Assembly: GCF_041361465.1 (NCBI RefSeq)
Contig: NZ_JBGKAC010000001.1
Coordinates: 2,666,001-2,730,000 of the forward strand
DNA from: Halobaculum sp. MBLA0143
Lineage (GTDB): Archaea; Halobacteriota; Halobacteria; Halobacteriales; Haloferacaceae
Length of the DNA stretch: 64,000 bases
Direction of reading: 5' to 3'
Under the pieces are notes generated by a model. That model saw only the letters and a list, made by a program, of their open reading frames with translations. It did not search any database and had not been told where the DNA came from. A program made the position numbers and the translations under genes. Shown piece after piece: positions 41,275-44,963 of this stretch; position 1 is the stretch's first letter, and each line of letters begins with the position of its first letter.

Positions 41275-42398
41275 TCCAGCAGTCGTCGTTCCAGCGCCGC
41301 CGACAGTCGTCTTCTGCCGTCTCGCAGTGCCGACAGCTCCCGGTCGATCTCGCCGGACGCCAGCCGGTCGCGTTGGTCGTCCGTCAGCTCCGTGGCCGCG
41401 CGAGCGGTCGTCCGGAGCCGGTCGTAGTCGTCGCGGCGCGCCAGCCGCGGGAGCTGTCTGGCCCGGGCGACGACGGACTCGTCGGCGAACTTCGCGGTGA
41501 CGGAGACGAGTTCTTCGCCGCGGGCACGCAGCACGCCCGGGGCCGGCGGCGGCCAGCCCACGACCAACGGCTCCGGCCCGAGACGGTCGAGGTAGCCGCG
41601 GTGGACGCCGACCGCGCGCTGGAACGCGCTGGCGTCCGAGACGTAGTGGTCGAGCTTCGAGGCGGAGTACGACTCGTACTCCAGCAGCGTCGTCACGGAC
41701 TCCTCGCCGACGGGGGTGTCTGCGAGGTACGACCGGAGGTCCGAGGGCGGCGACTGGAACTCCACGAGCGGGTAGTGGGTCGTGTCGGCGACGACGGAGA
41801 GGAGCTCGCGCGCCGGCGCCTCGCGCCGGAACGTCTCGAACGCCTCGCGGACGGCGTCGTCGTACGCGGAGACGGGTTCGCGCAGCTCCGCCGTCGGCGC
41901 CGACAGGTCGGCGTCGCCGAACCGTTGGAGCCGTTCGAGCTCCTCGATCCGGTCGTCGATCTCGTCCAGTCGACGATTGGCGTCCCGGCGGGCGTGTTCC
42001 AGCTCCGTCACGGCGTCGTCACGGGCGGACAGGCGGTCGGCGAGGTCGTCCAGCTCCGACAGCGTCTCGCGGGCGCGGTCGAAGTCGTCCTCGGAGAGCC
42101 GCCGTTGGTCGACGATCTCGTTGGCGCGCTCGAAGGCGTCGCGGCCGGGGACGTCGTCGGGTAGGTCCTCCACGAGCGTCTCGAACTCGCCTTGGAACTC
42201 GACGTACGCCTGGAAGTCGCCGGTGCCGGTGGCGTCGCCCTCGTACCGGTCGAGCAGTCGGCGGGCGTGTCGGAGGGCTTCGGCGACAGTCTCTAACCGA
42301 GCCCGCCCGTGCTCTTCGACGTCGGCGACGGCACCCTCGTACGTCTCGCGGGCGTCCTGGAGCACCGCGAGCTCCGTCTCGACTGGGTCGTCGACCAT
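41271..42398 (-). CDS. Coiled-coil haloarchaeal protein (DUF7118-like)
   Basis: The 375-residue acidic protein is mainly helical. Residues 20-180 are long heptad-patterned helices (LSELDDLADRLSARDDAVTELEHARRDANRRLDEIDDRIEEL is split by few breaks). A C-terminal part contains WPPPAPGVLRARGEELV and resembles haloarchaeal DUF7118. No enzyme motif is visible. The ATG overlaps the hisI stop by one base (TGATG), so it is coupled to histidine biosynthesis gene hisI, although no link in function is apparent. Confidence 0.7.
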   Translation of the reverse strand: MVDDPVETELAVLQDARETYEGAVADVEEHGRARLETVAEALRHARRLLDRYEGDATGTGDFQAYVEFQGEFETLVEDLPDDVPGRDAFERANEIVDQRRLSEDDFDRARETLSELDDLADRLSARDDAVTELEHARRDANRRLDEIDDRIEELERLQRFGDADLSAPTAELREPVSAYDDAVREAFETFRREAPARELLSVVADTTHYPLVEFQSPPSDLRSYLADTPVGEESVTTLLEYESYSASKLDHYVSDASAFQRAVGVHRGYLDRLGPEPLVVGWPPPAPGVLRARGEELVSVTAKFADESVVARARQLPRLARRDDYDRLRTTARAATELTDDQRDRLASGEIDRELSALRDGRRRLSAALERRLLD

Positions 42399-42877
42399 CA
42401 GTACACCTCGTCGGGGTCGAACACGCGGTCACCGTCGGCGGTCACCGCGAGTTCGAGTTCGTGCTCGTCGGTGTCGTCGTCCGTGTCGGTGTCGTCGTCC
42501 GTGTCGGTGGCGTCGTCCGTGTCGGTGTCGTCGTCCGTGTCGGTGGCGTCCGTGTCGACACGGCGGTAGAAACAGGACTCGTGGCCGGTGTGACAGGCGC
42601 CGCCGTCCTGGTGGACGCGGTAGAGCAGAGTGTCGCCGTCACAGTCCACGCGGACCGCGTCGACAGCTTGTGTGTTGCCGCTCGTGGCGCCCTTCTCCCA
42701 GAGCTCCTCGCGCGACCGGGAGTAGTAGTGTGCGCGCCCGGTCGCTACGGTCCGTTCGACGGCCTCGCGGGTGGCGTACGCCACCATCAGGACCGCGTCC
42801 GTCTCGGCGTCCTGTGCGACGACCGGGACGAGCCCGTCCGCGTCGAACTCCACCGTGACGGCGTCCGCGTCTGACAT
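42398..42877 (-). CDS. hisI: Phosphoribosyl-AMP cyclohydrolase
   Basis: HisI opens the adenine ring of PRAMP, the third step of histidine synthesis. The 159-residue protein has the zinc and active-site segments [38 protein letters not shown] and [11 protein letters not shown]. Residues 110-140, after the catalytic core, are an Asp/Thr array of six-residue units (TDTDDD) encoded by 18-bp repeats at 42470-42557, absent from ordinary HisI. It should not disturb the fold, as it lies in the C-terminal extension. Confidence 0.93.
42470..42557. repeat. Asp/Thr-coding 18-bp repeat in hisI
   Basis: Units of the type GTGTCGTCGTCCGTGTCG, with a GCG variant, repeat about five times and encode (TDTDDD/A)n on the minus strand. 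Confidence 0.85.
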
Positions 42878-43020
42878 ACGCCACCCTTCGAGCGACCGGC
42901 CCTTTTACCGTTCGGGTGCAGTACCGGCGGAGAGACAGACGCAGACTCGTCGGCGGAACTACGAGACCTGGGGAGGGTCGGCGGACTGCGGCACAGTGCG
43001 ACCGCGGCACGGGACGGTTG

Positions 43021-43395
43021 CGGGGCGGCCGCGGTGCGGTCACAGACAACTGTTCGACAGAGTGGCCGTCGTGCGGGGCGGGAGGGTCACAGACGACTGC
43101 TCGATAGAGTGGCCGTCGTGCGGGGCGGCCGCGGTGCGGTCACAGACAACTGTTCGACAGAGTGGCCGTCGTGCGGGGCGGCCGCGGTGCGGTCACAGAC
43201 AACTGTTCGACAGAGTGGCCGTCGTGCGGGGCGGCCACGGGGCGGTCACAGACAACTGTTCGACAGATTGTCCATCGTGCGGGGCGGGGCGGCCGCGGTG
43301 CGGTCGCAGACAACTGTTCGACAGAGTGGCCGTCGTGCGGGGCGGGGCGGCCGCGGGGCGGTCACAGACGATTGCTCGACGGAACTTCTCCGTGC
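43021..43395. repeat. 53-bp tandem repeat, about seven copies
   Basis: A unit containing GTCACAGACAACTGTTCGAC, then AGAGTGGCCGTCGTGCGG, recurs with the CACAGAC core at 43041, 43088, 43141, 43194, 43247, 43305 (as CGCAGAC) and 43363. Spacings are 47, 53, 53, 53, 58 and 58 bp. Each unit holds a small palindrome, CTGTTCGACAG. Since 53 is not a multiple of three and the unit contains no consistent coding, this is noncoding. The rest of 42878-43600 is GC-rich simple sequence (CGCGGTGCGGT strings at 43425-43475). Confidence 0.85.
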
Positions 43396-43601: not shown

Positions 43602-44963
43602 TTATTGGGGCGACAGCGCGTCCTGGACCACCGAGGTGTACGACGACGAGCCCTGGTTGTAGCCGACCTGGCGGAAGACTTCACCGTCGAACGTGTCTTC
43701 GAACACGCCGGAGAACCGCTCGGACAGCTGTTGGCCGTAGTCGTTGTTGACGTACAGCGTGGAGGCGGACGACGCGGACAGGCGGTCGGACGCCACCTTG
43801 GCCATCACGCGACCCTGGAGGCGGTCGGACGGCGCGGTCCGGAAGATGTAGTCGTCGTCTTCGAGGTTCGTGACCGACAGGGCCGTCGACGACGGCGAGC
43901 AGCCGACGACCTCGTTCGGGATGAACACGGACTCGGAGACGGGGACGTTCACGCCGGACGAGGCGCTACCACAGACGGACGGCACCCCGGCGTTGACGAG
44001 CCGGTTGGCGGCGGAGGTGCCGGCGTTGGGCGAGGTCTCGGTGTCCTCGACCTGGGCGTTGACCGACAGGTCCACGTCGGCGTTGTTGACCTCCTGGACC
44101 GGGAGCTCGGCGGCCTGGATCATCGGCTGGCCGACGGACGCCAGGTTGCCGGTCTCGGGCAGGAGGATACCGACGCTCATCTCGCGGCCGAGACCGCCGG
44201 GACCGCTGTCGGCCGACGGACCGTTCCCCTCGGGGTTGGCGCCCTCGAACTGCTGGACGTTCTCCGTGTTGGTGGACTGTTCGTCCGTGCCCGCGAACGT
44301 CCAGATGGCGTACGCCGCAGACGCCGGGTCGCCGTTCTCGTCGAAGTTGACCGCGGAGGAGGCGCCCTGGTAGTTCACGTCGTCGCCGTTGGCGGCCGCC
44401 TCGACCCCCTCGACGAGGTTGTCCGGAGTGACCTCCATCCCGCCGGGGTTGGCGACGCGGCGCATCTGGTCTTTCACCGCGCCACCGGAGTTCTCCCCGG
44501 CGGCGGCGTTCGCCAGCAGCTGGACCGCGACGGAGTCGTACGACTGCGAGGTGAACACGCCGGGTGCCTCGCCGTACTCGTCCTCGAACTTGGAGGTGAA
44601 CGCCTCCTGTGCGGGACCGCCGGCGGCCGGCGCGGTTCCGGTGACGTTCGCCATGTCGTTGCCGACCTGCGCCGGCAGCGCGCCGTCGCGCAGGCCGTCC
44701 GGGATGAGGATCTCCTCCTCGCCGTCGCTGACGCCGTAGTAGTCCCGGAACAGCTGGGTTCCGTCCTCCGGGTAGCCGATGACGATCAGCGCGTCTGGAC
44801 CGCCGCCGCCGCCACCACTGTCGCCGGCCGTCGTTCCTTCGGTCGATTCTCCGCCACCATCGCTGCCGCCGCCTTCCGAAGAGCAGCCGGCCAGAGCCGC
44901 GACTCCGGCGGCGCCAGTCGCCTGAATGAACCGTCGACGGTGTACCGTGTTGTCGTCTGCCAT
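43602..44963 (-). CDS. ABC solute-binding lipoprotein (LivJ-like), circularly permuted
   Basis: The 453-residue protein has a Tat signal and lipobox (HRRRFIQATGAAG, ALAGC with Cys 27) and a Gly-rich linker to residue 55. Residues 56-243 correspond to the C-terminal half of a type I periplasmic binding protein (from PDALIVIGYPEDGTQLF onward). Residues 259-453 correspond to the N-terminal half (GREMSVGILLPETGNLASVG to SYTSVVQDALSPQ). In normal family members DALSPQ runs directly into PDALIVIGYP, so the order is reversed with both halves complete. A TATA element is 28 bp upstream. No permease gene is adjacent. Predicted ligand is an amino acid or similar. Confidence 0.88.
   Translation of the reverse strand: MADDNTVHRRRFIQATGAAGVAALAGCSSEGGGSDGGGESTEGTTAGDSGGGGGGPDALIVIGYPEDGTQLFRDYYGVSDGEEEILIPDGLRDGALPAQVGNDMANVTGTAPAAGGPAQEAFTSKFEDEYGEAPGVFTSQSYDSVAVQLLANAAAGENSGGAVKDQMRRVANPGGMEVTPDNLVEGVEAAANGDDVNYQGASSAVNFDENGDPASAAYAIWTFAGTDEQSTNTENVQQFEGANPEGNGPSADSGPGGLGREMSVGILLPETGNLASVGQPMIQAAELPVQEVNNADVDLSVNAQVEDTETSPNAGTSAANRLVNAGVPSVCGSASSGVNVPVSESVFIPNEVVGCSPSSTALSVTNLEDDDYIFRTAPSDRLQGRVMAKVASDRLSASSASTLYVNNDYGQQLSERFSGVFEDTFDGEVFRQVGYNQGSSSYTSVVQDALSPQ

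Follow-up and report, generated by a model that had tools for sequence, protein, structure and literature searches.

The question raised by this locus is whether a solute-binding lipoprotein whose two halves stand in swapped order is a genuine, working protein and, if so, how and how often such an order came about. The gene lies in the window (the 64,000-nucleotide stretch of Halobaculum sp. MBLA0143 DNA analysed here) at positions 43602–44963 of the minus strand, a strand assignment missing from the preliminary description. Its reading frame is unbroken, from an ATG at 44963 to the stop codon at 43602–43604, and its translation is a complete permuted LivJ-type solute-binding lipoprotein of 453 residues, supported by a genome match to residues 1–453 and by a Peripla_BP_6 match. 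The chain runs in the order signal, tether, C-terminal half, linker, N-terminal half. Residues 1–27 (RRR...LAGC27; 44883–44963) carry the motifs of a Tat-type signal peptide and lipobox; TAT_signal family models match only weakly, scoring slightly below their cut-off, and RR and C27 are close to invariant across the family. A Gly/Ser-rich tether, recognised from its sequence, pLDDT and dN/dS, occupies residues 28–55 (44799–44882). The original C-terminal half comes first (residues 56–240; 44244–44798) and the original N-terminal half last (residues 261–453; 43605–44183), both assigned by their matches to the LivJ structure 4gnr and by separate tblastn searches with each half (80 loci). Between them, approximately residues 241–260 (GANPEGNGPSADSGPGGLGR; 44184–44243) make up a new linker that bridges the former C- and N-termini, a part supported by its conservation and dN/dS.

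The surroundings of the gene offer a few separate observations. A 53-bp GC-rich unit is repeated in 6.2 tandem copies at 43019–43345, between the binding-protein gene and a hisI-like gene (42398–42877, minus strand), and 18-bp repeats at 42465–42550 within the latter encode a Thr/Asp-rich stretch near its C-terminus. Scans for bacterial-type promoters and terminators, which are ill-suited to archaea, found nothing.

That the order of the halves is permuted had been proposed in the preliminary description, and the check suggested there, alignment of each half separately to LivJ-type proteins, bears the proposal out. Residues 262–442 align to residues 8–185 of 4gnr and residues 57–172 to its residues 198–315, so that the order of the halves is reversed. 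Pfam PF13458 (Peripla_BP_6) matches the protein in two stretches with a score of 92 bits (cut-off 31.7); the better stretch places residues 263–449 on profile positions 3–186 of 343. Judged by its sequence, then, the protein is a permuted member of the LivJ-like Peripla_BP_6 family, one that satisfies the profile but not the canonical N-to-C order. The cut point had also been placed correctly: the chain end VVQDALSPQ and the start of the mature domain, PDALIVIGYPEDG, are contiguous in normal-order orthologues such as that at L064 (QSALGDEPDLLIVIGYPASG). Both halves are complete, as had been claimed, and a linker does join the old termini, although its limits had to be corrected to those given above.

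The predicted structure agrees with this layout. In an AF2 model (pLDDT 74.6, pTM 0.76; the models were built on 15–19 related sequences), residues 1–52 have pLDDT values below 50, the first strand spans residues 58–62 and the last helix residues 443–450. The first permutation cut therefore falls in a helix-to-strand loop; the new start is residue 56 (PDALIVIGYP; 44796–44798), as the normal orthologues also indicate, and the other side of the cut is the stop codon at 43602. Foldseek, which aligns in chain order, matches the model to Leu/Ile/Val-binding proteins (best 1z15, 3td9, 3ipc and 4n0q) over approximately 195 columns, so that each alignment covers a single half, which is what a permuted chain should give. 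A twice-permuted relative has almost regained the canonical order, and its model matches LivK 3td9 over 338 columns at a TM of 0.70. On the evidence of these models, the protein is predicted to have the two-lobed fold of a Leu/Ile/Val-binding protein. By the domain limits of the E. coli Leu/Ile/Val-binding protein, the C-terminal lobe presumably holds the first cut and the N-terminal lobe the second.

The permuted arrangement is a trait of a family and not a peculiarity of this genome. A scan of 84,980 species genomes yielded 80 relatives, whose order was tested by searching with each half separately (tblastn). The C–N order was found in approximately 65 haloarchaeal loci or named species, including Haloferax, Halobellus, Halorubrum, Halogeometricum, Natrialba, Haladaptatus and others; in Haloferax, five of the species sampled show it. 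The N–C order was found in Halogranum, Halobium, Halobaculum, Natronomonas and Halolamina, as well as in the bacterium Halanaerobium, and two metagenome-assembled genomes (MAGs) among the 80 relatives have an N–C–N order. Recurrence of the swapped order across dozens of independent genomes is far from chance. Within the class, a full-length collinear match to the permuted protein occurs in at least 146 of 391 genomes (distinct genomes, among the matches listed); in the phylum sample, no match appeared among the non-haloarchaeal genomes listed. Neither situation that would have refuted the permutation is met: no intact tandem pair of normal genes exists at the window locus, and the C–N order is not that of normal members, as bacterial and many haloarchaeal relatives show N–C order. 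Relatives at L074 (near 6786) and L050 (near 3330) are broken by a contig frameshift, which could reflect sequencing error or a pseudogene.

Whatever the order of its halves, normal or permuted once or twice, the binding-protein gene sits tail-to-tail with livF, livG, livM and livH in nearly all genomes. This common setting identifies the different orders as variants at one orthologous locus. The genome of the window departs from this setting, as its gene is not beside livFGMH; the matching liv operon is approximately 143 kb away, beside uridine kinase, and the permuted gene of the sister species is likewise solitary. This distant livFGMH operon, at L103 (6882–11867; approximately 2853–2858 kb), has no adjoining binding-protein gene. 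At 1216 kb the genome also holds a further paralogue, of normal order, accompanied by liv genes of its own.

How often the first permutation arose is harder to settle. In a small initial tree of 70 rows it looked like a single event, a reading that broader sampling changed. Permuted rows now form four groups with normal-order rows between them: A (the window and most others), B (L163–165, L206 and L207), C (L166) and D (L167–172 and L200–202). At L210 (genome G065), a group D permuted gene ends after approximately 350 residues and is apparently a decaying copy. We consider it likely, but unproven, that the first permutation arose more than once. The alternative, which we find somewhat doubtful yet cannot set aside, is that it happened once and is shared by all of groups A–D, the normal clades in between being due to errors in the tree, to reversion, or to permuted and normal copies having recombined. 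A single cut point is common to all four groups, some support values near A and B are modest, and the C half alone does not reject one permuted clade (p = 0.22 and 0.68), all of which would fit a single event. However, one permuted clade is rejected on all columns concatenated (AU p = 0.00135 and 0.006) and on the N half (p = 9.6e-5; 0.02 in another test), group D joins normal-order rows with support of 99/99, and the linkers of A, B and D are unlike one another. Tests of pairwise groupings gave p = 0.044 for A with D, 0.079 for B with D and 0.085 for A with B.

For the second permutation, recurrence can be stated plainly. The proteins of two MAGs, L058 and L059, begin within the N half, at the loop that precedes strand 2, and continue with the C half, the same type of linker and the first 45 residues of the N half (N44-end, C, linker, N1–45). 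The same order, with slightly different ends, is encoded by G378 and by G386, a genome that consists of a single contig. In a tree of 59 proteins with their halves brought into register, L058/L059 are sister to the once-permuted L043 (support 100/100), and G378/G386 group with the once-permuted L014, L124, L036 and L040 (support 100/97); a single origin of the two pairs is rejected (AU p = 1.5e-69). Both pairs retain the linker of the first permutation. Their separate positions in the tree, together with this linker, demonstrate that an already permuted gene was permuted again, independently, at least twice, at the same loop and inside the permuted clade. The twice-permuted order is rare (3 of 391 genomes), and G309 encodes a sequence resembling that of L059.

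A bolder reading is that at one orthologous locus at least three first permutations occurred at one helix–strand loop, that at least two more followed at a second loop inside the main permuted clade, that the tether thereby moved from lobe to lobe and back, and that recurrent permutation was selected for tether position or for a fourth hinge crossing. Taken together, this scenario has in our judgement an even chance of being correct. In the reading that we prefer, such a permutation most likely originates by tandem duplication followed by loss of the outer parts. The chain was reopened at a helix-to-strand loop of the C-terminal lobe and its old termini were closed by the conserved linker of approximately 20 residues. 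The ligand cleft and the fold would be retained, the tethered lobe would change and a fourth inter-lobe chain crossing would be added, an effect on tether and hinge that is inferred. In two lineages the permuted gene was cut a second time, in the N-terminal lobe, at the helix-to-strand loop that leads into strand 2, and this may have returned the tether to its original lobe.

Tandem duplication with trimming of the outer parts is an inference, and the most likely mechanism; the clean cut and the existence of tandem copies of the permuted gene fit it. Such copies, two in tandem, are found in Haladaptatus-like genomes (L044 5791–8616, L177 and L178), which indicates that duplication at the locus does happen. 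The second copy at L044 has a signal-like start and lacks the lipobox Cys. No fused-dimer intermediate was found, and no vestige of a second C half was detected past the stop codon in 13 permuted genes. What looked like tandem second copies beside L064, L074, L041 and other loci were not dimers but liv genes read in antisense frames, or a contig with a frameshift. As a cause of the cut site, microhomology of the cut loop with the Gly/Asp-rich tether was considered and not adopted: a median percentile of 0.66 in 30 normal genes is weak for the first cut, and values of 0.33 in normal genes and 0.42 in 92 permuted genes lend it no support for the second.

We are confident, short of certainty, that the gene encodes a working type I solute-binding lipoprotein, a natural circular permutant of the LivJ/Peripla_BP_6 kind, whose amino-acid-like ligand is delivered to a LivFGMH importer; the ligand and the transport role are inferred. 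The protein would be exported, probably by the Tat route, anchored by lipid outside the cell, and there would bind an amino-acid-like ligand and hand it to the LivFGMH ABC importer. Because the gene is solitary in this genome and in the sister species, with the liv operon approximately 143 kb off, the partnership with LivFGMH, in trans in the window's genome, is only inferred. The likely function, again by inference and in the absence of binding, transport or expression data, is that of an ordinary amino-acid receptor for the LivFGMH importer with its tether on the other lobe. Among 19 permuted proteins, Y64, D89, S335, S336, S359 and T360 are invariant, and the motifs that contain them (GY64P, PD89G, AS335S336G and S359T360) are, by analogy with LivJ, putative ligand-site motifs. 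It is unlikely that the family has become a sensor or scavenger, no longer a transport receptor, so that its order and anchor were free to change. The solitary gene of this genus and the divergently evolving second copy of Haladaptatus, without a lipobox, would suit such a role, but in nearly all other genomes the gene adjoins livFGMH, as normal-order orthologues do, and the putative ligand-site motifs are retained.

The gene evolves under purifying selection. In a comparison with the sister species G173, the gene as a whole has a dN/dS of 0.131; the two halves have values of 0.09 and 0.11, and the signal and tether together have 0.35, the highest in the gene. The linker, at 0.037, has no counterpart in normal-order orthologues; eight of its positions are invariant in the 19 permuted proteins (G241, G248, A251, D252, P255, G256, G257 and R260). 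That the order is an artefact, an assembly or sequencing misjoin of a tandem pair of normal genes, is ruled out for practical purposes: the window genome was read only once and the gene lies in GC-rich sequence, with repeats on its downstream side, but the identical order recurs in many independently sequenced genomes, complete chromosomes among them, the sister species is 92% identical across 383 columns, and dN/dS is low.

Type I binding proteins with a naturally permuted chain are already known. One of them, TpMglB-2 (Tp0684) of Treponema pallidum, has been crystallised; it binds glucose and also occurs in Gram-positive bacteria, and its authors described a fourth lobe crossing and suggested a link to membrane tethering (PMC4990184). 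This 'Type Ic / Cluster Bc' protein resembles the present family in being a lipid-tethered type I ABC binding protein, naturally permuted with its old termini joined and present in many species (PMC4990184). TpMglB-2 belongs to the sugar-binding MglB family of bacteria, whereas the present family is LivJ-type and haloarchaeal. In TpMglB-2 the cut is in the N lobe and the first three strands were moved last (PMC4990184); here the whole N-terminal half is last, and the cut, placed where the N half ends and the C half begins, is not that of Type Ic / Cluster Bc. Unlike TpMglB-2, the present family has normal-order orthologues at the same locus and second permutations. From LivJ/LivK (PDB 1z15, 1usg, 4gnr and 3td9), with which it shares the fold, both halves, the putative ligand-site motifs and, in most species, the LivFGMH operon, it differs in chain order, tether position and the added linker. 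The normal-order haloarchaeal orthologues (Halogranum, Halobium, Halobaculum and Natronomonas), 50–63% identical per half and mostly in the same convergent livFGMH arrangement, keep the canonical N–C order that it has lost. YRG and cpRAS GTPases likewise share one fold in different natural permutations; there the permutations mark distant families, whereas here orthologues at one locus differ (PMC2430557).

No description of permuted haloarchaeal binding proteins was found in the literature searched. As far as that literature shows, the LivJ-type family, the archaeal hosts, the position of the cut, the occurrence of several orders at a single locus and the recurrence of the second permutation are new. 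As a rule, the circular permutations known from nature are old, isolated differences that set distant families apart. In this case, normal, once-permuted and twice-permuted orthologues are 50–75% identical and mostly occupy the same place beside the same transporter; recurrence of the second permutation is demonstrated. Such close variants make the origin and tolerance of permutations, their effects on folding and hinge, and selection on anchoring directly testable. A whole archaeal receptor family is thus mis-ordered relative to standard domain models, and the gene is a natural experiment in the re-threading of proteins with function kept.
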